64,000 nucleotides of DNA, from NCBI RefSeq assembly GCF_000378045.1, contig NZ_KB899090.1, positions 1-64,000 on the forward strand, in the 5' to 3' direction. The notes under the pieces are model-generated. The model made no database searches. It saw only the letters and a program-made list of their open reading frames with translations, and was not told the DNA's origin. This stretch comes from Marinobacterium rhizophilum DSM 18822. Lineage in GTDB: Bacteria > Pseudomonadota > Gammaproteobacteria > Pseudomonadales > Balneatricaceae. Below, one piece after another: positions 36,525-55,296 of the stretch. Numbering within the stretch: the first letter of the stretch is position 1; each line of letters opens with the position of its first letter. Made by a program: the position numbers and the translations under genes.

Positions 36525-37400
36525 ATGCTCCCTGAGCGGCACCCGGTGAAATCGACGGACTATGCGATCACTATCGATGTCGAGGACTACTTCCACGTGG
36601 CGGCGTTTGAAACGGTTATTTCTCCCGATCGCTGGGACCAGTATCCCTGTCACATTGAAGCCAACGTCCAGCGCATTATCGCGTCATTGGACGCCACGTC
36701 GGAACAGGCGACCAAAGCCACCTTTTTCGTCCTCGGCTGGGTCGCGGAGCGTTACCCTGCCCTGATCCGGGAGATCGCAGCTCTTGGCCATGAAATCGCC
36801 AGTCACGGCTACCATCACCAACGCCTGAACCGTCTTTCTCAACGCGAATTCAGGCAGGATATCACCCGGTCCAAAGCGCTGCTGGAAGATCTCGTCGGTG
36901 CGCCGGTGGCAGGCTATCGGGCCCCCAGCTTTTCGTTTGACGAAAACAGGCCCTGGATTCAGGATGAACTTCGAGAAGCAGGATACCGGTACAGCTCCAG
37001 CATTAACCCTGTGCCGCATGATCTGTATGGTTACAGGAAAGCTCCGCGCACGCCTTTCCTGTGGGACAATGGTCTGCTCGAAGTCCCGGTGGCCACGGCG
37101 GAGGTGTTCAACCGACGTATTCCCTGTGCCGGTGGCGGCTACTTCAGACTCTACCCTTATGCCCTGTCGAAACGGCTGCTGCAAAAGGCCGCCCGGCAGT
37201 TGGCCGGGCCGGTCGTTTTTTACGTTCATCCCTGGGAAATCGCACCCGACCAGCCAAGGATTCAGGCCGCTTCGGTCAAATCCAGGTTTCGGCATTATCT
37301 GAACCTGCACCGGACCCTGCCTAGACTGGAGCGGCTGCTCAGCGATTTCCATTGGGGAAAAATGTGTGATCTGCCGGTCGTCGTTCGGTACCTGGAGTAA
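36525..37400 (+). CDS. Polysaccharide deacetylase, XrtA/PEP-CTERM-associated (DUF3473)
   Basis: 291 residues. NodB domain with Asp18 in TIDVEDYFHV and metal ligands His94/His98 (SHGYHH), then RAPSFS, and a C-terminal DUF3473-like section (PVATAEVFNRRIPCAGGGYFRLYP; YVHPWEIAPDQP). This is the XrtA-type deacetylase. AAGGAG is 9 bases before the ATG. Expected to deacetylate the EPS. Divergent from the protease/prsKR unit. Confidence 0.93.
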   Translation: MLPERHPVKSTDYAITIDVEDYFHVAAFETVISPDRWDQYPCHIEANVQRIIASLDATSEQATKATFFVLGWVAERYPALIREIAALGHEIASHGYHHQRLNRLSQREFRQDITRSKALLEDLVGAPVAGYRAPSFSFDENRPWIQDELREAGYRYSSSINPVPHDLYGYRKAPRTPFLWDNGLLEVPVATAEVFNRRIPCAGGGYFRLYPYALSKRLLQKAARQLAGPVVFYVHPWEIAPDQPRIQAASVKSRFRHYLNLHRTLPRLERLLSDFHWGKMCDLPVVVRYLE

Positions 37401-39724: not shown

Positions 39725-39856
39725 ATTAGAGCTCCTTGTAACCGATCTCGTAATAACCAAGTTTCTAAGAGCCATCCGATAGCCTGGTGAAAAAAGGATT
39801 GTGACATCACTGGCACAACCCTTGTCGATACTTACTTGTTACTTGCCTGCAGGCGA

Positions 39857-40891
39857 TTAACTCCTTCTGGCGAATTGGTTCCTGCTTCCAAACCCCAGGA
39901 ACAGCAGTCCCAGAGCAAAGAGCAGTACCGTGCTGGGCTCAGGAACTTCCGTGGTTACAAAGCCAGAGTTGGCGTCCGTCTGGAACAGGATATCGGGCCC
40001 GCTGAAGCCGTTGACAGCGCCAATGTCAGGGATGATGACTGAACCGTCAAATTGCATGGACGGATTGGTTTGCGCGAACGGCAGTATATTGGAGGTATTG
40101 AAGAACAGGTCCTGCACCAGAGCCGAGACATCGGATATAAAGAAATCGTAGTCCTGGAAGGTCACGTCAGCCACCAGTTGGGTGGAACCTTCGCCGGTGA
40201 TGGTTTGCTGTCCACCCCATTGGTCTGCGCCAAATTGGTCCAGGAGGGTGGTTTGCAGGATGTCGCCGGCATTGAAGTCTCCACTGTTGTCAACATCCAC
40301 GAATGTGAAGTCTGCGGTGAAGTTACCGCTGAGGCTGACCAACTCGGCGCTCAGGATCAACTCCCCGTCACGATAACCAGTACCCGCCAGCGGGTCGTTT
40401 TGTGAGCCGACAGAAAAATCGTCGTAATAGATTTCGAAGAAATTGACAGTTTGGGTGCCGGCCTCCACCAGGGTGATGGTCTGGGAGAAGGTGTAAATAT
40501 CGTTGCCGCCGCCAAGGCCGTCACCGCCATCGCTCACCAATACAGTGGCCGAGGTTTCTACGCTATCGATGGTTTCCGTAAAGCCCGCGACAAAGGTGAT
40601 TTCAAAATTGGTATTAAGCCCGCTTGGCGCTATGCCGATGCCGTTTTCATTGACCAAGATGCCCAGGGATGCGTGGGAGTAGGATATGATGTCGTCTCCC
40701 TCGCCAGTAGGAATGGTGTCAACGGACAGGGTGCTGCCCGGCGCCCAATCAAATGAACCTACATCAAGGGTACCGTTGGCAACTTCACCCGTGCCATCGG
40801 GGTCAAACATGATTGTGTCGGTGGCGAACACCTGCGCCGACAGAGTGCAGGCCAGGGCGAAACCCGCGGCCAAGAGTGTTTTCTTGTTCAT
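39857..40891 (-). CDS. PEP-CTERM sorting-signal protein (exosortase substrate)
   Basis: 344 residues from ATG 40891 (AGGTG 6 bases upstream; GTG at 40900 is a poorer alternative). Signal peptide ending near VFATDT. The C-terminus is a textbook PEP-CTERM tail at residues 316-344: VPEPST, a hydrophobic stretch (VLLFALGLLFLGFG) and a basic end (RNQFARRS). Secreted, then expected to be cut by XrtA. The middle part is acidic and repetitive (GNDIYTF; DVDNSGDF) and may be glycosylated or structural. It could be related to the flocculation protein PepA of Zoogloea, but I cannot confirm this. Confidence 0.92.
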   Translation of the reverse strand: MNKKTLLAAGFALACTLSAQVFATDTIMFDPDGTGEVANGTLDVGSFDWAPGSTLSVDTIPTGEGDDIISYSHASLGILVNENGIGIAPSGLNTNFEITFVAGFTETIDSVETSATVLVSDGGDGLGGGNDIYTFSQTITLVEAGTQTVNFFEIYYDDFSVGSQNDPLAGTGYRDGELILSAELVSLSGNFTADFTFVDVDNSGDFNAGDILQTTLLDQFGADQWGGQQTITGEGSTQLVADVTFQDYDFFISDVSALVQDLFFNTSNILPFAQTNPSMQFDGSVIIPDIGAVNGFSGPDILFQTDANSGFVTTEVPEPSTVLLFALGLLFLGFGSRNQFARRS

Positions 40892-40982
40892 GTGCGTCAC
40901 CTACTTAGGTTGCCCGTCAGGTTGCCAGCCTGCGTGGATATTTGAACTCGACTCGAAGAGTCAACTGAACACTCAATACAAA

Positions 40983-41114: not shown

Positions 41115-41789
41115 CTAAGCCGCCGTGGTCTGAGCCTTGAGCAGGCGGGCAGGATTGCCGCCCCAAATTTCCCCGGGGGCGATGTGGGTGCCCTTGCCCA
41201 CCACGGCGCCCGCCGCCACCATGGCTCCATCACCGATGGTCACGCCGCTCATCACTATGGCCTTGGCGCCCACAGTGACATTATCGCCGATGCGGATCCG
41301 GGCATGTGACAACCGGTTGCCTTCCAGGGCATGGCTGAACAGCACCGCGTCGTGCCCGATCAGGCTATTGGCCCCGAGTTCCGTGAGCGGGGGGTCCATA
41401 ATAACCCCAGCGCTGTAGCTGTTGTCCCCCAGGCGGGCGCCCAGGGCCTGGTAGAGCAGGCGCATCAGGGGAGTGGGCAGCAGGTGATTGCGGGTCAGGG
41501 GGTAGAACAGGAGCAGATAAAACAGCAGGTACACATGATAGGAAAACTCCTCCCGGGAGTGCTCGGCAATTTCGCCTTCGCGGATAGGATAGCAGCGCAG
41601 GAAAACCCGATAAACGGCGATACCGTACACATACACCAGAAGAACCCAGCCAAGGGCCATGAACACGCCACGAAAATCCCCCAGCGGAAACCAGCCCAAC
41701 AGAAGATAGTTGGTGACCGTGGCCAGGGCCACGATAAACGAAAGCAAAAGGACAAAGGTCAGGATCGGAGCTGCGGTAATCTTGCGCAT
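41115..41789 (-). CDS. Hexapeptide-repeat acyltransferase, membrane-anchored
   Basis: 224 residues. Three hydrophobic segments (7-35, 42-65, 85-105) then a left-handed beta-helix (DNVTVGAKAIVMSGVTIGD; GAMVAAGAVVGKG), which binds acetyl- or acyl-CoA. The layout resembles the C-terminal acyltransferase part of Pls/PosA-type synthetases, here as a stand-alone gene. It likely transfers an acyl group to a sugar, peptide or lipid at the inner membrane. It is on the same strand as prsT but 409 bases downstream, with a terminator between. Confidence 0.75.
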   Translation of the reverse strand: MRKITAAPILTFVLLLSFIVALATVTNYLLLGWFPLGDFRGVFMALGWVLLVYVYGIAVYRVFLRCYPIREGEIAEHSREEFSYHVYLLFYLLLFYPLTRNHLLPTPLMRLLYQALGARLGDNSYSAGVIMDPPLTELGANSLIGHDAVLFSHALEGNRLSHARIRIGDNVTVGAKAIVMSGVTIGDGAMVAAGAVVGKGTHIAPGEIWGGNPARLLKAQTTAA

Positions 41790-41886
41790 GGCTATACCTT
41801 AGAACCTGTCGGACTTAACACTGATCTACTCGGCTCGGGCATCCTGCTTCGCCCTATCTCCTGCATCCATGCAGTCGTTCGGAAAA

Positions 41887-41913
41887 GCCGCCTCTCTTCG
41901 GTAAAGAGGGGGC
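41887..41913 (-). terminator. Terminator-like hairpin after prsT
   Basis: Minus strand reading: GCCCCCTCTT-TACCG-AAGAGAGGCGGC followed by TTTT. The stem has a mismatch or two. In the plus direction it is also followed by a T-run. It sits 286 bases past the prsT stop. Confidence 0.5.
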
Positions 41914-41947
41914 ATTTTTGTATACTCTTTCATCGAACCACTATTCA

Positions 41948-42107
41948 CAAGCTACATCCCTGTAGCTTGCGCGGTGGGCAGCTGACGCTGTGTTAATCGG
42001 CAATCCAGTCGATTTATCGTCTCAAAAGAGCTCAAAAACTGACTCATTCAATCGTCGGGAGCGATTGAACGTGCAAACCCCGAAGGGGTGAAGCACATGG
42101 ATGTGCT
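41948..42107. repeat. Cluster of four small perfect hairpins
   Basis: CAAGCTACA/TGTAGCTTG (41948-41969), TTCAATCG/CGATTGAA (42047-42069), CCCC-GAA-GGGG (about 42079-42089) and GCACAT-GG-ATGTGC (about 42094-42107). Such runs occur in dispersed intergenic repeats or structured RNAs. No gene is present. Confidence 0.4.
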
Positions 42108-42198
42108 GAGCAAAACGGTCTTCCCCTCGCTACGGCCAGCATTCTCAGACAGCCTCCCAGACGCTTGGCTCGTCGGGATGTTACGCCGGCACCCACGG

Positions 42199-45012
42199 TC
42201 AACCACTCAGTTCATCCAGTAATTTCTGCGCCTGCTGCTTGCCGGGGAACACCGCCTTGCTGTTCAACAACTCGGTCAGCACCTGGGTTGCCCGCTGCTT
42301 GTCCCCGCTTTGCACCAGGGCCTGGGCCAGGTGGAAATGGATCTCGGCATTTCCCGGGGCCTGCTGCAGGGCATTTTCCAGCAGCCGCACGGCGCGCGCC
42401 TCCTGCCCCGGCTGGGCCAGCAGAATCATCGCCAGGGTATCCTGAACCGGCGCCGTCGGGGATAGCTTATAGGCCTGTTCCGCGTAGGCAACCGCCTTTT
42501 TGGGCTCGGTATCCCTGAGCAGCCAGGCGAGGTTGTTCAGGGCAATGATATGGTCCGGATTGCTGTCGAGTATATTGCTAAACGCCTCCCTGGCTTCGGA
42601 TTTGCGGTCCGCCAGCAGGTAGAGAGTGGCCAGGTTGTACCTCACCACGCCATCATTCGGGTGCTTGTCGAGCCAGTCCTCCATGGGTTTGAAGGCCTGT
42701 TCCCGCTGCCCCGCCTGCCACAGGGCGAGCCCGTATTTCACCACCAGGTCATTCCGGTCTGGCGCCAGTTCCAGGGCCTGTCGGTAAGCCTCGACCGCCT
42801 TCCCGGGGTCGTTAAGCGCGGTTGACAATTGAGCGTCCTGGACATGGACCTCCGGATTGCCCGGGTGGTCCTGTTTCAGTTTATCTACCAATTCCCGGGC
42901 CTGGTCCCACTGCTGGCGCTGCATCAGCAGGCCGACCATGGCAATTTGGATCTCGAGATGAGTCGGATCCAGTTGATACGCTTTTTCCAGGACGGCGGCG
43001 AAATTTTTCCTGTCCCCGTTCTTGTAGTAGGCCTGGGCCAGAAGATAGTGGTCGGGGGCCGATTCCGGCTTCTGGGCGGTCAGGCGTTGGTAAGTCGAGA
43101 CAGCGCCACGGTAATCCCCGGTTTCCGCCTGGGCCGTGCCCAGAACCCTGAGCACCGCCGGGTCCTGCGGGGTCACTCTGGCCGCTTCCCGGATCAGCCT
43201 CAGTGCCCGCCCCGCATCCCCTTGGCGCAGCAACAACTTGCCGAGTAACGCGGCGGGTTCGGCGTCCCCGGGCTGCTGTTCCCATACCTTTTCCAGCAGC
43301 GGCAGGGCTTTTTCATCCTGGCCGGTCAGCAGATGGAGCTTGGCCAGCGCAAGGCTGATACGTGGATGACCCGGGTGGTGCTTCAGGCTTTCCTCGTAGT
43401 AGCTCAGGGCCTGTTTGATATCGCCCCGCTGCAGGGCAAAAACCGCCAGGTTGTGGGAGGCGCTGGGGTTGCCCGGTGACAACTCCAGTACTTTTTCGAA
43501 GGTCCACAGGGCCTGGTCCCCCATCCGGTTGGCGAGGAAGGCCCACGCCAGGCTGAGATGGGCCGGGACACTTCGCGAGCTCTTGTCCACCCACCGCTCG
43601 GCGGATTCCAGTGCCTTGGCATTTTCGCCGGCCTGCAATTGGCCCATGACCAGGCGCAATTCGTGTTCGTCCGCGCCCGGTTCAAGTGCGATCGCCTTTT
43701 CCAGTTCGGCTGTGGCCTGGTCGACCTCCCCCTGCGCCATCAGGGCAAGTCCGAGTTTGGAGCGCAGGTCGGCCGAGTCCGGATTCAGGGCCAACAGTCG
43801 CTCCAGCTTTTCGATCGCCTGGTCCGGCTTGCCCTGCATCATTTCCAGACCAGCCATCAGCTCCAGGGCCTGGCGGTTGTCCGGATCCCGCTCCAGCACC
43901 GATTCGAGCAGCGGCTGTGCTTTCTCCAGATCCCCCTTGCGCAACTGCATGCCCGCCAGCACATTCGCTGCATTGCCGGATTCCGGTACCAGGTTGAGAA
44001 CATTCTTGAGGTAAGTGTCCGCCTGCTGTTCATTGCCCAGGAGCAGGTGGGTAAGGCCCAGGTAGTACTGCAACGGGGCATAGGCGCCGTAACCATTCAG
44101 GGCCTGTTCGAAAGCGGTCTGCGCGTCCCGATACTCCTTTCGCTGGAAATGGACCAGGCCCTGGGCGAAATGTTTGCCGGGATATTTGTCCGAAAGCTTT
44201 TCGATATCCTTTTCGGCGCCTTCGATGTCCTCGCGGTGGATGCGCAGGAATGCCCGCTGGGCGATGTATTTCGGCTTGTTGGCCGCAGTGTCGATGGCCC
44301 GGGTATAGGCCTCCTCCGCCGCCTCTAGGTTGCCGTCGGCTTCTTCGACCCGGCCCAGCTGGCTCAGGGCTTCCGGGTTATCGGGCTGAATCTTCAGCGC
44401 CTGGTCGACCCAGTCCCGCGTGGCAACCAGGTTTCCTTTCGCTTGGTCGATCTGTGACTGGCCAAGTAAAGCCGTAACGGAGCGACTGTCAAGTTCCAGG
44501 GCTTTGTTCAGCTCCAACCGGGCCTGCGCGATATTGCCGGCTTGTAATAGGCTCTTGCCCCGGACGGCCAGCAGTTCAGCCTGTTGTTCCGGGGAAAGTG
44601 AATCCACGAGAGTGTAGTTTTTGAGGACTTCGTCATATTCCTGCTGGAGAAACAATGCATTGGCCAGGGGAACCAGGACGGTCTCCTCGGCTATCCCCTT
44701 GCTCCGTGCCTGGCGCAGCTCCTTTTCCGCGGAGGCGCCGTCCCCCAGTTCGATATAGGCCTGGCCCAGCAACAGACGGGCCTGGGCATTGTCCGGGTTG
44801 GTCTTGAGGGCGTTCTTAAACTCGATGACGGCGCTCTGCATTTCGCCCCGGGCCGTGGCCTCCCGGGCCCGCTGGAGGTACTCCTCGTCCGTCAGTCCCC
44901 CCGGGCCGCAACCTTGCAGCATGAGTAACAGGATCCCGCACAGCAGGGCCGGCCTGGTCTTTTTTTGCAGGGGAAGCATGGCTGAACGATTCACCAATTC
45001 CGAGCGATACAT
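42199..45012 (-). CDS. prsT: PrsT: TPR lipoprotein of the PEP-CTERM system
   Basis: 937 residues from ATG 45012 (GGAG 10 bases upstream); a start at 45117 is possible but would hide the signal. Lipobox LQGC with Cys35, so it is a lipoprotein. The rest is a run of at least 20 TPR units (A-ARLLLGQAYIELGD; ALNNLAWLLRD). Similar giants are found in XrtA loci, and may hold EPS or protein-sorting parts together in the periplasm. Third gene after the ThiF fusion and glycosyltransferase, 108 bases from the latter. Confidence 0.93.
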   Translation of the reverse strand: MYRSELVNRSAMLPLQKKTRPALLCGILLLMLQGCGPGGLTDEEYLQRAREATARGEMQSAVIEFKNALKTNPDNAQARLLLGQAYIELGDGASAEKELRQARSKGIAEETVLVPLANALFLQQEYDEVLKNYTLVDSLSPEQQAELLAVRGKSLLQAGNIAQARLELNKALELDSRSVTALLGQSQIDQAKGNLVATRDWVDQALKIQPDNPEALSQLGRVEEADGNLEAAEEAYTRAIDTAANKPKYIAQRAFLRIHREDIEGAEKDIEKLSDKYPGKHFAQGLVHFQRKEYRDAQTAFEQALNGYGAYAPLQYYLGLTHLLLGNEQQADTYLKNVLNLVPESGNAANVLAGMQLRKGDLEKAQPLLESVLERDPDNRQALELMAGLEMMQGKPDQAIEKLERLLALNPDSADLRSKLGLALMAQGEVDQATAELEKAIALEPGADEHELRLVMGQLQAGENAKALESAERWVDKSSRSVPAHLSLAWAFLANRMGDQALWTFEKVLELSPGNPSASHNLAVFALQRGDIKQALSYYEESLKHHPGHPRISLALAKLHLLTGQDEKALPLLEKVWEQQPGDAEPAALLGKLLLRQGDAGRALRLIREAARVTPQDPAVLRVLGTAQAETGDYRGAVSTYQRLTAQKPESAPDHYLLAQAYYKNGDRKNFAAVLEKAYQLDPTHLEIQIAMVGLLMQRQQWDQARELVDKLKQDHPGNPEVHVQDAQLSTALNDPGKAVEAYRQALELAPDRNDLVVKYGLALWQAGQREQAFKPMEDWLDKHPNDGVVRYNLATLYLLADRKSEAREAFSNILDSNPDHIIALNNLAWLLRDTEPKKAVAYAEQAYKLSPTAPVQDTLAMILLAQPGQEARAVRLLENALQQAPGNAEIHFHLAQALVQSGDKQRATQVLTELLNSKAVFPGKQQAQKLLDELSG

Positions 45013-45120
45013 GGTTGTTGTTCTCCACCTTATGGTTGATTCCCTGAGACCAACTTGGCCTTGAACAGCGGCCGGGCCAATAGAGCTTTGATAACTGTAG
45101 TTCAATACAGTCGTCATTTC

Positions 45121-46383
45121 TCAGGCCGTAGAGAGCTCCCGCGCAACCAGGTTTGCAAAGTGTCTTTCCGGCGCATAGGTCGCAACCTGTTGCATTACCG
45201 CCATGGCACAATCCCGATAACTGTCATTCCCCATCATCGTTTCGACTAGCTGTCGCAGCCTGGAAACGGTGGTTTGACCTGCTCGCATCAGGATGCCCAC
45301 CCCGGCCTGTTCGAGATAGGACATATTCAGATACTGGTCCAGATTACTGGCGATACCGACGACCGGTACGCCAGCAGCCAGTGCTTGCATGGTGGTGGGG
45401 CTGCCGCCATTGCAGATCACCAGGCTGGCGCGCGATACCGCCTGCTCACCGGGCAAAAAATCCGCCACCCAGGCGTTGTGCGGCTTTCGCTCCAGCTGGA
45501 TCAGGCCTGCAGTCGCAACAACAGGGGTCACCGGCAACTGCGCTAACGCGCCCAGGACCCTGGGCAACAGCTCGCTCTGTCCGGAGCTGCCCAGGGTGAC
45601 ATAGATGATTGGCTTGTCGGCAGGCAGTTGATCCCACCATTGCGGTAGCGCAACGCTGGGCGACCAATTGATTGGGCCGATGTACCGGTGCGTCGCTGGG
45701 CGTTCAAACGTCGGTACGAGTTCGGGGAGATCGGCATACAGCGTCTGGTCGGCATCGGTATAGATGCGCCTGAGATCCAGTCCCAGTGATGGCAGCCCGT
45801 ATTGCTTCCTGACCCTGTTTAGCGGCAGGGTATGCAGCGCAAAAGCCAGGGGACGTGCCAGTTTAAAGAGTGCACCGGCCACCCTGGCGCCGAAAAACCG
45901 AGTAATTGGCAACTCGGGCACCCGATAATGTGGCCTGGCGTAAGGGCTCCAGTAGGCATTGGTGATGGTCATATAGGGGATATCCACAAGGCGCGCGCTG
46001 ACCGACAGGGACAGGCGGAAGTCTCCGACGATCAGATCCGGGGAGATCTCCCTGATCACCTCAAGATCTTCTTTTACGTACGCCTGTAGAGTGTCACGGC
46101 TATAGAGTGGGCGTCCCTTGGCCAAGGCCTCCAGAAACTCCCGGCTGGTAATGGATTGGATGGGCCGCCAGGGCCTTTTCAGCGTGCGGAACAGATCGCA
46201 ATAGCGGGGATGGCAGGCAAAGTGAACCTCATAACCTGCGTCCTCCAGGACATGGGCCAGAACCATCGGTCTTGCCACGTGGGCCAGGGTGGCCGCTTCG
46301 GCGAAAAACAGCACACGCCTTTTGTGGTTGGCGATATTTTTCTGGTGTTTTTTTTCGGGCGAATCCGCAAGACTCTCATTCAT
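45121..46383 (-). CDS. UGT-like glycosyltransferase (GT1)
   Basis: 420 residues. GT-B fold: N-terminal FFAEAATLAHVARPMVLAH, middle IYVTLGSSGQSELLP, C-terminal ICNGGSPTTMQALAAGVP and SNLDQYLN, a donor-binding pattern of the MGT/UGT (GT1) family. GT1 enzymes usually glycosylate small lipophilic compounds rather than extend EPS. Its start overlaps the ThiF fusion's stop by 4 bases, so it likely modifies the same product. Donor unknown. Confidence 0.85.
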   Translation of the reverse strand: MNESLADSPEKKHQKNIANHKRRVLFFAEAATLAHVARPMVLAHVLEDAGYEVHFACHPRYCDLFRTLKRPWRPIQSITSREFLEALAKGRPLYSRDTLQAYVKEDLEVIREISPDLIVGDFRLSLSVSARLVDIPYMTITNAYWSPYARPHYRVPELPITRFFGARVAGALFKLARPLAFALHTLPLNRVRKQYGLPSLGLDLRRIYTDADQTLYADLPELVPTFERPATHRYIGPINWSPSVALPQWWDQLPADKPIIYVTLGSSGQSELLPRVLGALAQLPVTPVVATAGLIQLERKPHNAWVADFLPGEQAVSRASLVICNGGSPTTMQALAAGVPVVGIASNLDQYLNMSYLEQAGVGILMRAGQTTVSRLRQLVETMMGNDSYRDCAMAVMQQVATYAPERHFANLVARELSTA

Positions 46384-48389
46384 TTTGCCAGCCTGTCGTC
46401 TGATTGCTCATCGGCGGATTTGTCCGAAATAATCAATTCCTTCAGATCAAGCCTCAGGGAACGGGAGGCCGGCAACGGGCTTTCACCTATCCGCCCGATA
46501 AAGACAGCCTGCTCCGTCTCTGCTTCCATCAGTTGCCTGAATTTTTCGGCGCAAGCGCCGGCCAGACGTTCCACCGACGGGGTTCGGGTAAACGGGATAC
46601 CGAGACGCAGAAAGCGGGCGAAGATCAGCGGTGTCATCTCCGGCTGCAGTCCCAGCCCCAGCCGGGTGGACGTCAGCCACAGCCGCTGCATTGCGCGGCC
46701 CGCCTGCAGATAGTCCTCCAGGGTTTCGGGAGCCTTGGGCGCGACGATGGCAAAGTGTGCGGCGCAGCGGAGCCCGGGAAGCAGATCCAATTGCAACCGT
46801 GGTACCAGGGTACCGGCCAGGTAACGGTTTACAAAGGCGACCCGCTCCCAGCTTTGCATCACCCAGCGCATCAGTTTGGCGGTCAGGGGGTCTACCCCTA
46901 CCGCCTGCTCGGGAATTCGGTCTTCACTGAACTGCTGCCCCCAGTCGATGACCTGGCTGTGCACCGAATACGCCTCCGGCATGGTGAGCCGCACCTTGGC
47001 GTTGGCAAACATAAGCCGTGCCACCTGCCAGCGATCCTTCGGTCGCTCAAACCAGCGCACCCGATATCCCTCGGGCAGGCTCTGCTCGAGCTGAGCCCGC
47101 TCGGTAACGGTCAAGGGTCGGGGGCTCATCGGCCGGCGCTGCACCGAACGAACCCTCAAGTAGAAGGCCAGGGGATTGGGCGCCAGGTCGTTATCAGGCC
47201 GCAAAGTGACATCAAAGGTGGGGGTCTGCTCCGGCAGATCGGGACGCCGCTGGATCTCGGCTCTCAGGCCAAGGGTTGAGGCGGCCATCTCGATAGATTC
47301 CAAAAGAGCACCGATCGCCATCTGGCTGGCTCGACCATCGAGGTCGTAAACCACGGTGTCACGGGTATCGGAGCCGTGCACCACCAAAGCGTTTTCGTCC
47401 ACCAGCTCGAATCGCCAAGGCTGGGTGTTATCGCCACTCGGCGCCCAGCGTGCCAAATCCAACACTTTCTCGGCGGCCGTGACCGGAGTGTAGGCGTCCG
47501 CTTCTTTGGATTTTGAGTTTTTATCCAGGTTTTCCAGATACTGCTTCTTGCCGATACTGATGGCCAGCTTCTGCAAGGGGTTGTTGTTTCCGCCAGGCCG
47601 CCAGGTCTTGGTCGACCGGTTGGTATAGGCGTCAAACTGCAACCCCCAGGGGGCAGCTACCACCCTACCCCGCTTTAACAACAGTTTTAATACCTGGCTG
47701 GCCGCCGCTCCGGCGCAGAGCTCACAGCCAATCGCCGAAGACGGCCCCTTCCTGGCGAAGGCATCGATACGCTCCGGATCCACCAGGTAACCACTGTGGA
47801 GTCGGGCGGGCGCCAGCCCGACAAAAAAGCGTAAATACTGCTCCTCTTCCGAAAACCCGTCCAAACGAAAATATTCCTCAAAGGTCATTTTCCCAGGCAG
47901 GAAGTTCAGCACGGCGGTACCCATGCCCAGGGGCGCGGCCGTTGTGGCCGGAATTCCCAGACGGTCGCAAGCGGCAAATACCGCCTTTCGCGCCGCCAAG
48001 GCAAAGAAATCCAGTCCGTCGACATACACATCGACGTCCTGCAGAAAAGTCTCCACGTTTTCGCTGGAAACGCCGTCGGGAAAAGTGCGGATATCCAGCT
48101 CCGGGTTGATATCCAGGGCCCTGTTGACCAGGGTTTCGAGCTTGGGTTGACCGACCGAGGAGAGGCTTGCACCCGCCTGGCGATTAAAATTTTCGATGCC
48201 AAACTCGTCGAAGTCCGAGAGGTTGAAGGCGCCGATACCCAGGCGAGTAAGGGTTAACAGATGGCTGCCGCCCACCCCGCCGAGGCCTGCGATCGCCACA
48301 CGTCTGGTTTTCAGCAACCGCTGCTCCGCTTCCGTTACCCAGCCGATATTGCGTGAAAATGCAAGATCATAGTCAAAATCCGTATTCAT
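46380..48389 (-). CDS. ThiF/E1-like adenylyltransferase fused to nitroreductase domain
   Basis: 669 residues from ATG 48389. Domain 1 (about 1-260): E1-type adenylation with GLGGVGG at 35-41, DFDEFGIENFNRQ at 59-71 and a CELC pair (Cys222, Cys225). Domain 2 (about 305-660): nitroreductase-like flavin domain beginning DLARWAPSGDNTQPWRF, with a later PLGMRWF-like cluster missing. Similar fusions are known from mycobacteria (Rv1355c type). The pair suggests adenylation and then reduction or oxidation of a carboxylate or peptide terminus. Translationally coupled to the glycosyltransferase. Product unknown. Confidence 0.82.
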   Translation of the reverse strand: MNTDFDYDLAFSRNIGWVTEAEQRLLKTRRVAIAGLGGVGGSHLLTLTRLGIGAFNLSDFDEFGIENFNRQAGASLSSVGQPKLETLVNRALDINPELDIRTFPDGVSSENVETFLQDVDVYVDGLDFFALAARKAVFAACDRLGIPATTAAPLGMGTAVLNFLPGKMTFEEYFRLDGFSEEEQYLRFFVGLAPARLHSGYLVDPERIDAFARKGPSSAIGCELCAGAAASQVLKLLLKRGRVVAAPWGLQFDAYTNRSTKTWRPGGNNNPLQKLAISIGKKQYLENLDKNSKSKEADAYTPVTAAEKVLDLARWAPSGDNTQPWRFELVDENALVVHGSDTRDTVVYDLDGRASQMAIGALLESIEMAASTLGLRAEIQRRPDLPEQTPTFDVTLRPDNDLAPNPLAFYLRVRSVQRRPMSPRPLTVTERAQLEQSLPEGYRVRWFERPKDRWQVARLMFANAKVRLTMPEAYSVHSQVIDWGQQFSEDRIPEQAVGVDPLTAKLMRWVMQSWERVAFVNRYLAGTLVPRLQLDLLPGLRCAAHFAIVAPKAPETLEDYLQAGRAMQRLWLTSTRLGLGLQPEMTPLIFARFLRLGIPFTRTPSVERLAGACAEKFRQLMEAETEQAVFIGRIGESPLPASRSLRLDLKELIISDKSADEQSDDRLAK

Positions 48390-48520
48390 AATAATGTGAG
48401 AGACTCCAACCCGATTCCTGTTAAGCCAAATTCCAGGTGCTGGCAATCAACCGCCTTCGTGGCCTTGTAGCACGCCAGTCCTTCCGGCAAGACGATACCG
48501 CCGGGCAAGTTGGCCATGCT

Positions 48521-48536
48521 GTTTGCCCGGGCAAAC
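48521..48536. promoter_or_regulatory. Perfect 16-bp palindrome, possible operator
   Basis: GTTTGCCCGGGCAAAC reads the same on both strands. It lies 132 bases upstream of the ThiF-fusion start in an otherwise gene-free 376-base spacer (48390-48765), a sensible place for a dimeric regulator. No regulator gene is nearby. Another inverted pair (GTGCTGG / CCAGCAC) lies at about 48600-48660. Confidence 0.35.
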
Positions 48537-48765
48537 ATTTTCCGAGAGGATCAGATCCCCGGGGCACAGGACAGGTGCGCCTGCATTTTGGAAAATCCGC
48601 GTGCTGGTGCCAAAAGCTGAACAAATAACGAGCACCTGGGCGGTGTTACCTGCCAGCACTGACTATAACCGAGCAAAGGGTGATTTATTCGCAGATTCCG
48701 TAAACGATACGAAGTCTGCCTCTCTGGCGCTCAATCGGAGGTCAGGCATTGCAGCCGGTCGACTC

Positions 48766-50013
48766 TCAGAAGTACCGGGTCAGCTGGATTTCAAGGTAAT
48801 CATCATCCCTGATCTGACGGAGGGGGTCTTCCTCGTCCACATTGGTAAAGAGTCGCATTTCCAGGCCAAGAACCCAGTGCTCACTCAAGCGCCGTGAGGC
48901 TTCCACATTGGCGAAGGTGGAATCAGAGCCTGTGTCGACGGTAACCCCCGCAAGAATGCGGGTATTATGAACATCGTTATCGGTAAATCGGACCCCGAAA
49001 AAGATATCGTCCTGCAGTACCGTCGTCGCGCTATCACCCCGTTCGTCGTAGTTGTACTCCAGCAGCCAACCCAGGTCGACTGCACTGCCCGCTATACCAA
49101 ATTGTGTGAACTCAAAACCGCCGACGTAGGCGTAATAGTCGTCGACCTTATTCTGGTTGTAGATTGCCTCGAGCTTCCAAAGCCATGCGCCCTTCGTAGC
49201 CTGAACGTCGAGGCTGGTCTGGTCGATCTGCAGGTAAAGGGGGCGCAGGCTGGGCCTGGGGCCTGAGTCGTCAAGTATCAGCAGCGGTTCGCGGCTGGTT
49301 CCGCTGAAATGCGCGATACCGATATCCCAGTCACCGAAATAGTGGGACCAGCGCAAGGCGAAATCGACATGGTGTTCCTCGTCGCCGGACTCGTAAATTG
49401 CAGCATCGGTATCGATCGCAGGCTCAGTGCGCAGGCGGCCATCCTTTCCAGGGAAGGTGCGCTCCCTGAAGTAGGGCAACAGGTAAGCCTGCCAGGTGCC
49501 CCAGTCATTCAGGTAGCCGAGGTTGAGCATGGGCTGCCCCAGTTTGTCCTCCCGATCGATATTTTCCACCAGGTCGGTCTGGTTGATGATATCGACCAGA
49601 TGTTGCGACTCCGCCACGCCCCAGAAAACAGTGTCGACCCCGGCCTTGAAGACGAATTGTTCAGTTTCCATGCGCCAGAACAGTTCCCGTATATCGGCAT
49701 GAGTACGCTCGTCGTCATTGGCGTCAAGGCGTAAAAACGGGGTAAACGCGAAGGTTTGCGTTCCGTCGTCCCAGTTCCGATAGTATTCGGGCTGGAATAC
49801 TGCTGACAGGTTCTGGTCATCCTGGGCCGGATGGACCGGGCCGTGGAAAAACAGCCGAGGTTCCAGGCTGACATAGCCTGTCCATTCGCTCGAAGCGCTA
49901 TCGGTGCTTGAATTGGCAGAATCGTCTGCCGCTGCAGCGACAAATTGCCCATATGCAAGCAACGGAACCAGGATCAGGGATGAAAAGTCGATACGGCGCA
50001 CTTTATGCTTCAA
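48766..50013 (-). CDS. Outer-membrane beta-barrel protein (DUF1302-like)
   Basis: About 415 residues. I place the start at TTG 50013, with GGAAAG 5 bases upstream, just after the stop of the previous gene; the ATG at 50064 lies inside that gene and has no site. A signal peptide ends near FVAAAA. The mature part has repeated amphipathic strands (YVSLEPRLFF; FALRWSHYFGDWDIGI; DLGWLLEYNYDER) and ends LTRYF, a barrel end. Third gene of the RND exporter trio; it likely serves as its outer-membrane outlet or lipid receptor. Confidence 0.8.
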   Translation of the reverse strand: MKHKVRRIDFSSLILVPLLAYGQFVAAAADDSANSSTDSASSEWTGYVSLEPRLFFHGPVHPAQDDQNLSAVFQPEYYRNWDDGTQTFAFTPFLRLDANDDERTHADIRELFWRMETEQFVFKAGVDTVFWGVAESQHLVDIINQTDLVENIDREDKLGQPMLNLGYLNDWGTWQAYLLPYFRERTFPGKDGRLRTEPAIDTDAAIYESGDEEHHVDFALRWSHYFGDWDIGIAHFSGTSREPLLILDDSGPRPSLRPLYLQIDQTSLDVQATKGAWLWKLEAIYNQNKVDDYYAYVGGFEFTQFGIAGSAVDLGWLLEYNYDERGDSATTVLQDDIFFGVRFTDNDVHNTRILAGVTVDTGSDSTFANVEASRRLSEHWVLGLEMRLFTNVDEEDPLRQIRDDDYLEIQLTRYF

Positions 50014-50026
50014 AATGGCTTTCCTA

Positions 50027-50872
50027 TTATCGAATGCGCGACAGTGCACTGCGATTGAAATCACTGTCCGTCAGGCCGGTGCGGAACCGGTAATCCTCGA
50101 ATATCAGGGTAGTACTTTTCTCATTCTGGTGATTCTTCATGATCATTTTTGCCGGGCGCCAGTACTGCTCCAGGTACTGCCTGTAACCTGCCAGCGTCAT
50201 GGTCTTGAGCAGTTCGCCCTTGCGATCGTAGTAGTCCACGCGCCGGAGCCGGTATTCGCTCTGGTCCACCCAGGTTACCTGGCGCGTGTAGCCAGATTTT
50301 GAGTCGACGGGAACACGTTCGACCACGAAGCAAGGTTCGCCGTCCACGGGTTCGTCCCGCAGGTAAGTGTAGGTATATTTCTCGACTTCCTGCGAGGACA
50401 GATCCTCATAAGCAAACTCGCTGCCCATGAACGGCCCCGACTTGTCGGCGGAAGAGATTCGTTTTACGCGCTTGAGCGCCGGCAGATAGAGCCACTGGTC
50501 ATCGTTGCCGACTTTGTGTGTAAAGGTCAGTATGGCCGTTCCCTTGAGATCCCGAGGCCTGTCAAACACCATGATACTCTTGTCACCGTCGCCCTCGACT
50601 TCCAGCGTCAATTGGCGCATTTCCCGGCGCACCTCCTCGGTTCCGGAAAGGTTCAGCAGCATGGCGAGGTTGACTGTCGTATCCCCGAAACCACGATCGC
50701 GCCGGTCTGCCTCCAGTGCGATGGCCAGTCCTTGCTCAGGCGCTGACTCTTTCAAAGCGGGCTCTTTCGAAGCTGGCTCCTGCGAAAACACCGGACCACA
50801 AAAAATAGCCAGGCAGATAACGGCGAATACTGATCGGTGGAAGCCTGCTCGACTGAACTGTTTTACTTTCAT
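50027..50872 (-). CDS. Outer membrane lipoprotein-sorting protein (LolA-like fold)
   Basis: 281 residues from ATG 50872 (GGGAG 6 bases upstream). Signal peptide ending near PVFSQ. Contains DKSIMVFDRPRDLKGTAIL, QWLYLPALKRVKRIS and SDFNRSALSRIR, typical of the LolA-like family that sits with MMPL exporters. It is periplasmic and probably shuttles a lipid from the RND pump to the barrel encoded next. Spaced 19 bases from the RND stop and 13 from the barrel's start. Confidence 0.88.
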   Translation of the reverse strand: MKVKQFSRAGFHRSVFAVICLAIFCGPVFSQEPASKEPALKESAPEQGLAIALEADRRDRGFGDTTVNLAMLLNLSGTEEVRREMRQLTLEVEGDGDKSIMVFDRPRDLKGTAILTFTHKVGNDDQWLYLPALKRVKRISSADKSGPFMGSEFAYEDLSSQEVEKYTYTYLRDEPVDGEPCFVVERVPVDSKSGYTRQVTWVDQSEYRLRRVDYYDRKGELLKTMTLAGYRQYLEQYWRPAKMIMKNHQNEKSTTLIFEDYRFRTGLTDSDFNRSALSRIR

Positions 50873-50891
50873 ACACATCTCCCGTTCGGGC

Positions 50892-53213
50892 CTACCCACC
50901 GATGATAGTCGTTTTCGCCGCCTGGGGCAGCAGCCAGCGATCAGCCTTGATCAATACGGTCGGTAGAAACAACAGATCCAGAATGATGGCAATAGCGATG
51001 GTCATGGCGACCAGCAGGCCCGATGTGGAGTTTACGGAAAAATCCGATTGTACTAGCGCCAGGAAGCCGATCGCCAGGACAATCGAGGTGGAGAGCAGGG
51101 CACTGCCCACTGCCGCAAAGGCGTACCTGATCGCCTGCTCCGCATCCAGGTTCCGTTCCTGCCTGGCCTCCAGGTATTTCACGAGGAAGTGGGTTGTGTC
51201 ATCCACAATGATGCCCAGGGTCAGACTGAACACCACGGAGGCGGCGATGTTCACCTCACCGACCACTGCCCCCCATAGCCCGAGGGTAACGAAGGCGGGA
51301 AACAGGTTAGGTATGCAACTGACCAGCCCGAACCGGATCGAGCGGAAGGCAACGATCAAGCAGAGCGAGACAAGCGCGATCGCCGCCAGGGATCCGAGGA
51401 GCATGCTGTTGATGTTGCGCAGGCCGACATTCGCAAAGCTGATGGATTGACCCGCCCCGCGGGTGACCATGCCCGGCAGATGGTCCTGCATCCACCGCCT
51501 GCTCCGCGCCTCGAATGCAATGAGACCTTGTGATTGCTGGTTCTTCAGCGTTGCCGCCACCTTGAGGGAGGATTTGTCCGCGCTTATCTGATGTGTGACA
51601 TCCTGCCCATAAGGAACGGATATCTCATAGAGCAGGACATACTGCGCCGCCAGCTCTCTGCTGTCCGGAAGTTTGTGCCACTCCTGGGCCCCGCCATGCA
51701 TCACCTGGTTCAGCCGCTTCAGCGTATCGGTAAATGACTCCACGTTGACCACTTCGGATTGCGCCCTGAGCCAGGAGACAAACGAATCGATATCGGCAAG
51801 AAAGCGGGGATCGGCGATACCCTGCTCCTGCCCGCTATCAAACGAGTAGTAAACCGACTGGGTTCCCGAGAGCTTTCGCTCGATGACGTCAATGGCTTGC
51901 GTTAGAGGAACCGAGTCAGAAAAATAGCCGGTTGGGTCGTCGTTGAGCTCAATGCGCGGAATAAAACTCACTGTCAGACCAATGAGTAACAACGAACTCC
52001 AGAAAATGCGGTTGTTATGGCGAATCACCCAGTTGGCGAGACCACCCAGTGGTATGCCGGTTGTTACTCCCCCCGACTTTCTGAAGGGTAGTATCTGCAC
52101 CAGGCCGGGAAGAATGGTTACCGTCACCCATAGCGCGCCCAAGACACCCACAGCGGCTATGGTGCCGAGTTCACGGAACGGTGGCGACTCGCTGAAATTC
52201 ATGCTCAGAAAACCCAGCGCCGTGGTGAGGCTGGTGAGCACAATCGGATAGAGCGTATGATCCAGAGCGCCCCATAGTGCATCCGCTTTCTCCTGGCCGT
52301 TCCTGAGGCGGGTCAGGAATACGCTCAGCAGGTGGATGCAGTCCGCAATGGCCAGCGTCATGATGATCGTCGGCGCCGAGACGTTGACGCTGTTGAGGCT
52401 TATACCCGCCCATCCAGCAAAGCCCATACCGCAAAGGATGCTAAGAAATATCGTTACCACCGTGCAGATCGAAGCCATCACGGAGCGCAGTAACAGGGCG
52501 ATGAAGACCAGAACCAGGACAAAAAGTGCCGGCAGGAGGGTTATCGAGTCGCGGGCAGTGACTTCAGCAAGGGTCTGCTCGGTCAAGGCCCGCCCGGCAA
52601 GGCGAACTTCAATGGCGGGATTTGAACTTTCAACTTCAGTCGCCAACTCCCTTGCATATCTCACGGCCTGGTCAATGGCGGCCGCCTGTTCATCTTCCGG
52701 TAAATTCAGGGTGACATTGACCGCGGCGACCTGACCGTCATTGGCCAGCAGGCGCCCTATCAGTACCTGTTGTGACATCGCGATGTCCTTAATGCGTCGG
52801 CGGTCTTCGCTTGTCAGTGCATCCGCATTTTCAACCAGCTTGTCGATAACGATGTCGTCGCCGTCCACCTCGGGATAGAGGAAGTTGGTGACGGAGTCAA
52901 CACGCCTCGCGTGGGGCATGAGCCATGACTTTTCGGTAATGGTCTGAACAGACGACAGATTGTTGGCTTCGAATATGTCACCGCCGCGGGTGTCTATGAC
53001 GAACAGTACGTTGTCCTCACGGCCGTACGTTCGCTTTAGCTCGCGGTCTGCAATAAGGTTCGGGTCGTCCTCACTGAAAAAGACATCGATGCCCGACTCA
53101 ACGGTCAATCGGCTGCCACCAAACCCGATGCCCAGGATCAAGACAAGGCCGACCAGTATTATCCGGTAGGGGTAGCGAACAAGCGCTGTGATCAAGCGGT
53201 CCTTGAGTGCCAT
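50892..53213 (-). CDS. RND/MMPL family exporter
   Basis: 773 residues with 12 membrane helices in the two-fold MMPL/HpnN layout: one helix, a periplasmic loop (about 40-220), five helices, then the same again. Motifs include GISLNSVNVSAPTIIMTLAIAD split over two helices, and its repeat GIIVDDTTHF in the second half. Such pumps extract lipids or hydrophobic molecules and push them to the periplasm. Heads a three-gene operon with LolA-like and barrel proteins. Substrate not known; the neighbouring acyltransferases suggest an acylated small molecule. Confidence 0.88.
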   Translation of the reverse strand: MALKDRLITALVRYPYRIILVGLVLILGIGFGGSRLTVESGIDVFFSEDDPNLIADRELKRTYGREDNVLFVIDTRGGDIFEANNLSSVQTITEKSWLMPHARRVDSVTNFLYPEVDGDDIVIDKLVENADALTSEDRRRIKDIAMSQQVLIGRLLANDGQVAAVNVTLNLPEDEQAAAIDQAVRYARELATEVESSNPAIEVRLAGRALTEQTLAEVTARDSITLLPALFVLVLVFIALLLRSVMASICTVVTIFLSILCGMGFAGWAGISLNSVNVSAPTIIMTLAIADCIHLLSVFLTRLRNGQEKADALWGALDHTLYPIVLTSLTTALGFLSMNFSESPPFRELGTIAAVGVLGALWVTVTILPGLVQILPFRKSGGVTTGIPLGGLANWVIRHNNRIFWSSLLLIGLTVSFIPRIELNDDPTGYFSDSVPLTQAIDVIERKLSGTQSVYYSFDSGQEQGIADPRFLADIDSFVSWLRAQSEVVNVESFTDTLKRLNQVMHGGAQEWHKLPDSRELAAQYVLLYEISVPYGQDVTHQISADKSSLKVAATLKNQQSQGLIAFEARSRRWMQDHLPGMVTRGAGQSISFANVGLRNINSMLLGSLAAIALVSLCLIVAFRSIRFGLVSCIPNLFPAFVTLGLWGAVVGEVNIAASVVFSLTLGIIVDDTTHFLVKYLEARQERNLDAEQAIRYAFAAVGSALLSTSIVLAIGFLALVQSDFSVNSTSGLLVAMTIAIAIILDLLFLPTVLIKADRWLLPQAAKTTIIGG

Positions 53214-53864
53214 GGCGAGTTTCTCGAGACAGGTTCGATTGAAGTCAGGGGACTGAACCTGACCTTAAACTTAGTGTAGTGGTTCAACGAACCCGGACAC
53301 CGTTTTAGGTGGTACAGTCGTGACCAAAGAAGAGAGGAGCCTGAGCTGTGATACTGAAGGTTTGTCGCCGATACGCAACAGATTGAATTAACCCTCTCTA
53401 TTCAATTATCGACTTACTCATCAGTGTCTTATCGAACTTAACATTTCGATTTTGTACAGGAATCGCAGGACTTATATCTCCCCTTGATCCGATTTTTTCG
53501 TTGCATCTTTTGATTACCTGACTGGAGCCAGGTTCAGAGTACGCAGATAGCTGAACTATGAAGCAATCGACTGCCTCCAGAAAGCGTCATTTTAAATAAT
53601 TGATTTTATTACGTTTTATTTATTCTAGAGATACCTGTCCCTGATTGATGACATTTTGTGGAAGCATTTGCGGGAAAATCGACGACGAAACGGAAAAAAG
53701 CCATATAACCTATTGATTATTATAAATAAATAAAATCAGGCTCGGTTTTTGCTGATTTTTCCGAAATTTGACTGCGTGATTCAAGCACCAGTTGCTTGGC
53801 AATGATCGGATCAGGGTGTATCCGACTGGCAAAAACGACTCACGAAGGTTGAGGGAAATACCCA
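53214..53864. other. AT-rich spacer, 650 bp, no gene
   Basis: No coding frame is credible. TGATTTTATTA near 53601 and its inverse TAAATAAAATCA near 53731 form a long-range inverted repeat around 120 bases apart. It must hold the promoters of the RND trio and the LuxI-like gene, which are divergent. No Vibrio-type lux box could be picked out. Confidence 0.4.
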
Positions 53865-54467
53865 ATGTCAATTCGCTTTGAATTCAGTAAAAAGCCGCAG
53901 TTGCTTGCCCAGTACTATAAAATCCGGGAGGCCTGTTTTCGCAAAGAACTGGGACTCGAATCCTTTGATGGTTCGGAAGACGAAGACGATCGAGCGGGAC
54001 ATATTTTGATTGCCATGGATGTTGATCGCTGCATCGGTGGCGCCCGGTTCTCTGGCAGCCCTGCCTCCAACCCGACGCGCTTACCCATGGAAGACGACGA
54101 CTTTGTGCTCGAGAAGATCTTCCCCGAACTGGCGCAACAATCCTACGGCCAGTGGACGCGTTTGTGCCTTTTGCCTGAGTACAGGACGACGGAGATGTTA
54201 CGTGATCAATGCCGGGCGATGGTCAGAGGAAGTGTGGAGCTGAATTACAGCTATGGCTTTAATGTTGCGGGCTTAGCCCGTGCGCGTCTCTATAAGCGCC
54301 TGCATACAGTCCTCGGTTATGACTACAAGATTTATGATCAAATCGGCATTCCTGCAGAGCAGGGATTTACGCACCTGCCACACCTGCTTTCCATCGCCTT
54401 TCTCCAACCTGAGGCCAGGGCGTTGAAGTGCGCCGACGGTTCAACACTTACCCAATGCGCGGCCTAG
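53865..54467 (+). CDS. LuxI/N-acyl amino acid synthase-like GNAT acyltransferase
   Basis: 200 residues. The start has the LuxI-like pattern IREACF (Arg21, Phe25, the R-x3-F of LuxI), an acidic stretch (GSEDEDDRAGH), GGARFSG, and WTRLCLLPEYR. These enzymes join a fatty acyl group from ACP to homoserine lactone or an amino acid. Such synthases have been reported linked to PEP-CTERM systems. It faces the second acyltransferase tail to tail. Whether the product is a lactone or an N-acyl amino acid cannot be told; no LuxR gene is nearby, favouring the latter. Confidence 0.7.
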   Translation: MSIRFEFSKKPQLLAQYYKIREACFRKELGLESFDGSEDEDDRAGHILIAMDVDRCIGGARFSGSPASNPTRLPMEDDDFVLEKIFPELAQQSYGQWTRLCLLPEYRTTEMLRDQCRAMVRGSVELNYSYGFNVAGLARARLYKRLHTVLGYDYKIYDQIGIPAEQGFTHLPHLLSIAFLQPEARALKCADGSTLTQCAA

Positions 54468-54530
54468 CCGCCTGCTGCATTTGTTCTTGGAGTTTCTCAT
54501 CACTGAAGTACCCCGGGACCAAGCAGGCGG
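54468..54530. terminator. Inverted repeat between convergent genes, possible terminator
   Basis: CCGCCTGCT (54468-54476) and AGCAGGCGG (54522-54530) are perfect complements with a 45-base loop, and AAAA follows. The loop is long for a standard terminator, so this is tentative. Confidence 0.3.
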
Positions 54531-54561
54531 AAAAGTATTAGCGTTACACGCTGAATACCAT

Positions 54562-55296
54562 TCATTTAGGTAGCTGCTTCTCAAGCTGGGCATAGATGTC
54601 GTCAAACATTTCCCGAATCGGGGGGATCAGGTGCTCTAATAGGATATCCGGTGATATATAATAAGGGGCCCTGATTCCATGGTACTTGATCGGCTCCCCC
54701 GCCCGCTGAAATCGGATGCCGACCCGAGACACCCCCCTAGCGAGCCTGGGTTCCATCATCACCACCACATAATGATATTTCTGGAGCACGCACAGCGCCG
54801 CGGCTCCCAGATAAAGGCCAACGGCGATATAGGGGAAATTCTTGGCATGATCGGATATATCTGTCCGCATACCTTCGAAGATAAAGGGCCTGCCCTTTTC
54901 CCCGGAACGGCGCCGGAACTGGGCGGAAACCGCCAACCGTGAAACTTCGGCGATGGAGCCACGCGCCTGGGCCTTCAGATCGAAAAGACTGGGATCGAAG
55001 GCGTGGCTGCAATATTTCTCCAACGGTAATATCTGCTCAGGCATTGAGGTCGAGGTGTGCACGAAACGCACCGTACCGACAAAATTCTGGCTACTGTTAT
55101 GCACAAGAAGCAGATGATCGGAGATAGAATCGAACGCATCCCGTTCCAACCCGTCGGGAAACGCATCCTTCTCCTCGAATCCCAGCTCATCGCAATAGAC
55201 TTCATAACGAATCCTGAACGCCTCTCGACGTTGCGCTTGCGTATCCGCCAGCCGAATGCTGAAGTACTTTTTGAAATTAATTGGGATTTCGTGCAT
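54562..55296 (-). CDS. PEP-CTERM/exosortase system-associated acyltransferase
   Basis: 244 residues. N-acyl amino acid synthase-like GNAT: FRIRYEVYCDELGFE near 26-40, FVGTVRFV near 71-78, AEVSRLAVSAQFRRR near 115-130. This matches the acyltransferase family defined by its co-occurrence with XrtA. Long-chain N-acyl amino acid synthases of this kind have been described as linked to PEP-CTERM systems. The product may act as a signal or membrane lipid. The ACP at 10.8 kb is a possible acyl donor. Confidence 0.85.
   Translation of the reverse strand: MHEIPINFKKYFSIRLADTQAQRREAFRIRYEVYCDELGFEEKDAFPDGLERDAFDSISDHLLLVHNSSQNFVGTVRFVHTSTSMPEQILPLEKYCSHAFDPSLFDLKAQARGSIAEVSRLAVSAQFRRRSGEKGRPFIFEGMRTDISDHAKNFPYIAVGLYLGAAALCVLQKYHYVVVMMEPRLARGVSRVGIRFQRAGEPIKYHGIRAPYYISPDILLEHLIPPIREMFDDIYAQLEKQLPK

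Follow-up and report, generated by a model that had tools for sequence, protein, structure and literature searches.

What would an enzyme that fuses a ThiF-type domain to a nitroreductase be doing in an exosortase locus, among acyltransferases, a membrane pump, a periplasmic carrier and an outer-membrane barrel? The question is raised by the first 64,000 nucleotides of contig NZ_KB899090.1 of Marinobacterium rhizophilum DSM 18822 (hereafter the window, meaning this whole stretch), which, as judged from its genes, is an XrtA/PEP-CTERM exopolysaccharide (EPS) locus: XrtA, PrsK, PrsT and a PEP-CTERM protein were all found by a family-model scan and inspection of protein tails. The answer we favour, and hold to be reasonably probable, is that these genes encode a pathway to an acyl-oxazolone or N-acyl-dehydroamino acid that has been placed in the XrtA locus together with a Lol-like export route. 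The genes concerned, which an original prediction had picked out from the DNA sequence, are:

54562..55296, minus strand: ACYL1, acyltransferase of the TIGR03694 N-acyl amino acid synthase (NAS) type (TIGR03694 243.7 bits, FeeM 45.4 bits)
53865..54467, plus strand: ACYL2, divergent LuxI/NAS-like acyltransferase (HHalign probability 88, E 3e-6)
50892..53213, minus strand: MMPL/RND pump of the HAE3 type (PF03176 141 bits; TIGR00921 165 bits, below the cut-off of 352)
50027..50899, minus strand: LolA-like periplasmic carrier (PF17131 230 bits, cut-off 30)
48766..50064, minus strand: outer-membrane barrel, DUF1302-type (DUF1302-seeded local profile 125.7 bits; C-terminal EIQLTRYF)
46380..48446, minus strand: ThiF-nitroreductase fusion (ThiF-NR), oxazolone-synthetase-like, that is, a putative cyclase plus flavin oxidase (PRK08223 415 bits, plus nitroreductase)
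45121..46383, minus strand: GT1/UGT-like glycosyltransferase, accessory (PF06722, PF04101 and PF00201 over cut-off)
42199..45117, minus strand: PrsT, TPR protein of the XrtA system, context (TIGR02917 702.5 bits)
41115..41789, minus strand: hexapeptide acyltransferase with a hydrophobic N-terminus, accessory (PF00132 44.5 bits)

This nine-gene content has stood up. All nine have open frames whose coordinates agree with the list of open reading frames, and Pfam or NCBIfam models confirm seven of them (ACYL1, ThiF-NR, the LolA-like carrier, MMPL, the UGT-like protein, the hexapeptide protein and PrsT), the support for ACYL2 and the barrel coming from profile comparison. In two other genomes of the genus (G001 and G003) the nine genes recur with their order unchanged and are 68-92% identical, and the set is for this reason more than a chance assembly.

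By its domains, the fusion protein resembles an oxazolone synthetase

Judged by its domains, ThiF-NR has the make-up of an oxazolone synthetase, as in OxzB, TrzS and the pair TyzB plus TyzC: a ThiF domain with ATP-site residues, a fused oxidase of the nitroreductase superfamily, and an NAS nearby (ACYL1, 6.1 kb away). The ThiF part matches PRK08223 (NF006077) at 415.4 bits, well over the cut-off of 266, and the closest named ThiF match, among the best 80 of at least 528, is that of Marinobacterium sedimentorum OS208 (91% identical). Across 15 ThiF domains and 23 fused proteins, the GxGGxG motif, N66, R69, Q70, K82 and D126 (domain numbering) are invariant, and D58 is invariant or nearly so. 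In the window protein, where these motifs are intact, the conserved residues align with the ATP-site residues of ThiF and TcdA, which we take to be the catalytic ones. The C-terminal part carries a nitroreductase flavin mononucleotide motif, with APSGDNxQxW conserved in the 23 fused proteins, and matches Acg (2YMV) by both sequence (E 2e-6) and fold (E 3e-11). Both folds are seen in the predicted structure (mean predicted local distance difference test score, pLDDT, 82.8), which matches ThiF, MoeB, MccB and Acg. The true start of the protein is probably the ATG near 48389.

A ThiF domain might also belong to an E1-like enzyme that acts on a protein, for example on a PEP-CTERM tail, and structures of ThiF, MoeB, MccB and UBA5-type E1 enzymes are indeed among the best fold matches. 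We regard this as highly improbable: fusion or adjacency to a flavin oxidase and an NAS matches the oxazolone enzymes instead, the best PDB sequence match of the domain is TcdA, whose substrate is the carboxylate of carbamoyl-threonine on tRNA, and no ubiquitin-like protein was found among the scanned neighbours (frames of at least 100 residues).

What the fusion would do as an oxazolone synthetase can be read from its published relatives. N-acylation, ATP-dependent ring closure and O2-dependent desaturation have been demonstrated for the mycobacterial systems TyzABC (PMC10404671) and TrzAS (PMC12856293), and the same two papers describe OxzAB of Pseudoalteromonas rubra as an oxazolone biosynthesis system. 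All three share with the window an acyltransferase, a ThiF-like cyclase and a flavin oxidase of the nitroreductase superfamily, the latter two being fused in the window as in OxzB and TrzS and split in TyzB plus TyzC. Since these relatives use ATP to cyclise an N-acyl amino acid and O2 to desaturate the product, the chemistry of ThiF-NR is, by analogy, very probably activation, ring closure and oxidation, not reduction. The suggestion that the acyl compound is "adenylated or reduced" is thus replaced by ATP-dependent cyclisation with O2-dependent desaturation (PMC10404671, PMC12856293). The oxazolone ring is opened by acid and also by methanol (PMC12856293).

ThiF, XrtA and N-acyl amino acid synthases occur together

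We surveyed 303 genomes from 235 genera drawn from the class, in which XrtA is over cut-off in 54 genomes, PRK08223 in 28 and TIGR03694 in 35. The 28 loci with PRK08223 over cut-off are referred to below as the class loci; weaker ThiF matches (188/303 genomes have some match at E 1e-20) are general ThiF/MoeB relatives and were left out. ThiF occurs with XrtA in 26 of its 28 genomes (Fisher p 2e-20) and with TIGR03694 in 21 (p 1.6e-17), p-values that are too small since the genomes are related. Within 12 kb of ThiF, the distance used throughout unless another is given, an NAS is found in 23 of the class loci (at no more than 1 kb in 14), a nitroreductase in 18, PrsT in 15, a UGT in three and a hexapeptide acyltransferase in two; several of the contigs are short, so that these counts may miss genes. 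Linkage of ThiF to an NAS is thus conserved.

Two further samples were examined. ThiF is present in 23 of 144 relatives, six times as a long fusion alignment, and 15 ThiF loci from these relatives have an NAS in 14 cases and a LolA-like gene in four. The 80 named loci (the best 80 of at least 528, biased to near relatives and with many short contigs) have an NAS in 58, a nitroreductase in 64, a UGT in 21, a LolA-like gene in 13, an MMPL pump in seven and an ABC transporter in 13, with both motors in none; three duplicates (L048, L076 and L078) remain in these 80 and were left out of the tree and of the tailoring and acyltransferase counts.

The window's own synthases differ in how well they fit the family. 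ACYL1 is over the TIGR03694 cut-off (112 bits), also matches Acetyltransf_5 and FeeM, and is 36% identical to the synthase of Thalassotalea sp. PP2-459, a thalassotalic acid producer. At E 0.001, ACYL2 has no match to any model in Pfam or NCBIfam, TIGR03694 included; its tie to the LuxI/NAS family comes from the HHalign match to the ACYL1 family over its N-terminal 105 residues and from a single BLAST match (28% over 125 residues). It reads QWTRL at the family's E-x-S-R-L, the conserved Glu being replaced by Gln, and its predicted structure, built from two sequences, is unusable (pLDDT 30.6). At least two acyltransferases are present in 11 of the class loci (the window included, its ACYL2 counted by hand). 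Three of the 28 genomes have, as their NAS near ThiF, a protein of FeeM type (410-437 residues) in place of a TIGR03694 protein.

One of these three, at L143:5342-6583, is fused to a cyclic-nucleotide-binding (cNMP) domain by Pfam scan; a synthase controlled by cNMP is not known to have been described, though no search aimed at this was made. Eight more FeeM-profile matches are of like length (for example L140:10881-12110, L146:5911-7221 and L109:14641-15891), nine in all, of 398-438 residues; the domain scan covered the L143 protein.

A pump, a carrier and a barrel that often lie near ThiF

In the window, the genes for the inner-membrane motor (MMPL) and the LolA-like carrier overlap or abut. 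No model in Pfam or NCBIfam covers the barrel, which was reached by a local profile seeded with a DUF1302 protein (PF06980), an iterated profile that may already have included it; its C-terminal residue is Phe, as in outer-membrane barrels. The complete trio lies near ThiF in 15 of the class loci, the LolA-like gene in 16 and a DUF1302-type barrel in 15, whereas chance would give a LolA-like gene at that distance in 0.53 genomes (p 4e-22 before allowing for relatedness; the expectation is based on a list, copied by hand, of the LolA-like places that score over cut-off, 68 in all, which are spread over 26 of the 28 ThiF genomes). These figures and those for the NAS bear out the proposal of an acyl-lipid module with its own likely route from the inner to the outer membrane, and the trio and ThiF are for the most part not scattered independently of the acyltransferases, the UGT and one sister genome (below) being the departures.

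The motor of this trio is interchangeable. Among the 17 class loci with a motor, 11 have an MMPL pump, six an ABC transporter and none both, and on a quick ThiF tree of 120 tips, 41 of which have a motor, its type changes at least four times. Two ABC permeases that we scanned (L132) score best against lolCE, at 126 and 106 bits (cut-off 362), and a LolD-like ATPase lies nearby in 12 of 19 ABC loci. LolCDE/MacB-class transporters are exporters, and the interchange of MMPL with LolCE-like ABC motors leads us to favour export as the function of the trio. On that tree, an independent-pairs comparison between exporter and NAS had no power.

The same linkage bears on what is carried. If the same enzymes made a diffusible signal resembling N-acyl homoserine lactones, or an antimicrobial, that controls matrix production, the trio would have another cargo or merely secrete the product. 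Signalling and antimicrobial action are both considered as possible roles for the products of the relatives (PMC12856293, PMC12479983), and a signal would also explain why, in Methylomonas LW13, polysaccharide bands no longer form normally once the exosortase-associated NAS is disrupted, a defect that complementation repairs (PMC11072679); a Methylomonas metagenome-assembled genome (L094) has NAS, ThiF and nitroreductase together. A LolA-like gene in 16 class loci where about 0.5 would be expected suggests instead that the product is membrane-bound rather than freely diffusing, and we consider a diffusible product a serious contender that is nonetheless unlikely.

Nor need the cargo be the acyl lipid at all, as the trio could serve the XrtA system as a whole, that is, PEP-CTERM proteins, EPS or lipoproteins. 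The scores of the ABC version against lolCE are in keeping with this, as is the frequent nearness to ThiF of PrsT and of PEP-CTERM genes, the latter, recognised by a simple rule on protein tails, at no more than 5 kb in 14 of 26 class loci (a count that leaves out the window, where the nearest such gene is 5.5 kb away, and G388, at 2.9 kb). The distribution of the carrier argues the other way. In 25 XrtA genomes without ThiF and TIGR03694, no LolA-like gene (E 1e-20) lies on the contig of the over-cut-off XrtA, and eight of the 25 have no LolA-like gene at all, whereas seven of 26 genomes with XrtA and ThiF have one on the same contig within 60 kb of XrtA (p 0.01; the seven were counted by eye, the 60-kb limit was chosen afterwards, and contig breaks weaken the comparison). 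In G388 it is ThiF that the exporter accompanies, XrtA being 439 kb away. We therefore reject the idea that the exporter is part of every XrtA locus, and hold a trio that serves the whole XrtA system to be improbable. Where TIGR03694 occurs without ThiF, an exporter was found in one of 12 loci (G347, with XrtA) and in none of the nine from genomes without XrtA over cut-off; these are 12 loci of 14 such genomes, G227 and G234 being left out.

A proposed pathway

In the pathway that we favour, ACYL1, perhaps with ACYL2, would N-acylate an amino acid, probably an aromatic one, with a fatty acyl chain; the ThiF domain would activate the carboxylate of the N-acyl amino acid with ATP and close the oxazolone ring; and the nitroreductase-type domain would desaturate the oxazolone with O2. 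Acylation, cyclisation and desaturation are demonstrated steps in the relatives and are proposed here by analogy. The UGT may glycosylate the product in this lineage, and the hexapeptide enzyme may acylate it. The MMPL pump would then pull the product from the inner membrane, the LolA-like protein ferry it through the periplasm, and the barrel take it up at the outer membrane. The amino acid, any sugar, export and its direction, the outer-membrane destination and a role in the matrix are parts that we infer.

Several observations weigh against this pathway. By sequence, ThiF-NR is a relative and no member of the Rv1355c/TrzS subfamily, because it scores below the cut-off of NF005901 (181.6 against 476 bits), and its nitroreductase is only 23% identical to that of Thalassotalea sp. 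PP2-459. Five of the class loci have no NAS near ThiF, 11 no motor and 10 no nitroreductase, and in G417 no LolA-like gene lies within 59 kb of ThiF. The presence of a motor changes at least 24 times on the ThiF tree, so that nearness of the exporter is labile. In Thalassolituus, a single protein with both MMPL and LolA-like domains, encoded beside a predicted porin gene, is raised on long-chain alkanes and was read as uptake-related (PMC6304351), which implies that such trios are not bound to an acyl-lipid cargo. Finally, one sister genome, G004, keeps both acyltransferases, MMPL, the LolA-like carrier, the barrel, the UGT, PrsT and the hexapeptide protein at 67-86% identity and lacks ThiF-NR alone, with no match in the approximately 560 bases between UGT and barrel (L168:11615-12177). 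The exporter and the UGT thus persist where this enzyme cannot cyclise the product, so that the exporter is not tied to ring closure.

Accessory genes and sister genomes

Within the genus, the window genome, G001, G003 and G004 each have XrtA as well as TIGR03694, and neither is matched in G002, G005 or G006. The state of G004 has a parallel in Massilia umbonata, whose candidate clusters also lack ThiF and nitroreductase genes and for which only saturated kyonggic acids are reported (PMC12479983). With a UGT in three and a hexapeptide protein in two of the class loci, these two genes are lineage-specific, and we rejected them as core parts; the pair of ThiF and glycosyltransferase named in the original prediction is accordingly not a general unit, and G004 has the UGT without ThiF-NR.

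Of 120 loci, 10 (L104:11954-12829 and nine others) have a methyltransferase no more than 8 kb from ThiF, never with a UGT; by analogy with the stieleriacines it is possibly an alternative tailoring step. As a statistical matter the alternation was not significant: a UGT lies within 8 kb in 26 of the 120 and both in none (p 0.08, uncorrected for relatedness).

Other genes of the window

The XrtA setting of the module is given by the following features, and by genes at 25-29 kb for an XrtA-system tyrosine kinase, an outer-membrane protein and an ATPase:

39857..40900, minus strand: PEP-CTERM protein, context (C-terminus VPEPSTVLLFALGLLFLGFGSRNQFARRS)
36525..37400, plus strand: polysaccharide deacetylase of the XrtA system, context (TIGR03006 385 bits)
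14046..15587, plus strand: XrtA exosortase, context (TIGR03109 358 bits at 14118-14894)

The PEP-CTERM protein is one of two PepA-like neighbours, both below the family cut-off; the other (38024-39775, 583 residues) has no PEP-CTERM tail. At 28761-31013, inside the XrtA locus, an HprK-related kinase A, also retained in G001, G003, G018 and G043, is accompanied by a 100-residue protein and one further gene. An AT-rich gap of 650 bases (53214-53864) separates the divergent MMPL and ACYL2 genes and is a likely control region. Sigma-54 sites as a shared control were rejected, with 37 matches against 38 expected in shuffles.

Relation to known systems

Oxazolone chemistry and the link between NAS and exosortase are already known. 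Craig, Cherry and Brady reportedly tied NAS to PEP-CTERM/exosortase in 2011, going by the title of their work as cited; both systems would thus have an exosortase-linked NAS, to which the window adds ThiF-NR and the export trio. Clusters of NAS, ThiF and nitroreductase have been connected with N-acyl dehydrotyrosines, of which Thalassotalea sp. PP2-459 is one producer, and those for thalassotalic acid, kyonggic acid and stieleriacine share these three components with the window (PMC12479983). In PP2-459 (L071) the three stand in a row (TIGR03694 260.8 bits, PRK08223 404 bits), with a ThiF 65% identical to that of the window, and adjoin homologues of genes from the window's XrtA locus (XrtA itself was not looked for there).

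Unlike OxzAB, TyzABC and TrzAS, the window set belongs to an XrtA locus and is accompanied by a LolA-like carrier, a barrel and a pump, the comparable transporter at tyz being the adjoining mmpL9 (PMC10404671). The nearest likeness for the carrier is ApeL-ApeM-ApeN, in which a LolA-like carrier and an RND pump are proposed to deliver an aryl polyene lipid to the outer membrane; where the window has a DUF1302-type barrel, that system has a LolB-like (DUF3261) partner (PMC8253772), and in relatives of the window module, unlike ApeLMN, the motor can be LolCE-like.

The words exosortase, PEP-CTERM, transporter and export are absent from the main text of PMC12479983, and neither "exosortase" nor "PEP-CTERM" occurs in PMC10404671, PMC12856293 or PMC12479983. 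Our literature search found no paper joining ThiF-NR to an exosortase or a Lol-like exporter, an earlier mention in Craig 2011 or de Rond 2021 being possible, and nothing that pairs PEP-CTERM with MMPL, or exosortase and PEP-CTERM with "lipid anchor"; the one paper that matched both exosortase and ThiF is listed as dealing with Geobacter IHF, and among the matches listed, oxazolone and exosortase terms occur together solely in unrelated places of one paper. An association of oxazolone chemistry with protein sorting and with a dedicated means of export thus looks new.

An exported oxazolone could, more speculatively, be a reactive acyl donor, whose ring would open at the outer membrane onto the amines of deacetylated EPS, or onto a nucleophile or processed end in XrtA sorting, covalently lipidating the matrix or PEP-CTERM proteins. 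We consider this very unlikely. If true, such a donor would offer one solution for the sorting acceptor, an unknown periplasmic nucleophile in the 2006 exosortase model of Haft (PMC1569441), and would apply to about half of XrtA genomes (26/54), those with this ThiF.

The pathway that we favour joins three subjects so far separate, oxazolone lipid chemistry, exosortase-linked NAS and a Lol-like carrier system whose motors can be exchanged, and gives a probable function to the PRK08223 ThiF family, a "hypothetical protein" in NCBIfam. The physiological role of oxazolone lipids has been called a major unresolved question (PMC12856293); with the locus described here they gain a likely destination and a testable setting, the biofilm matrix and the exosortase.

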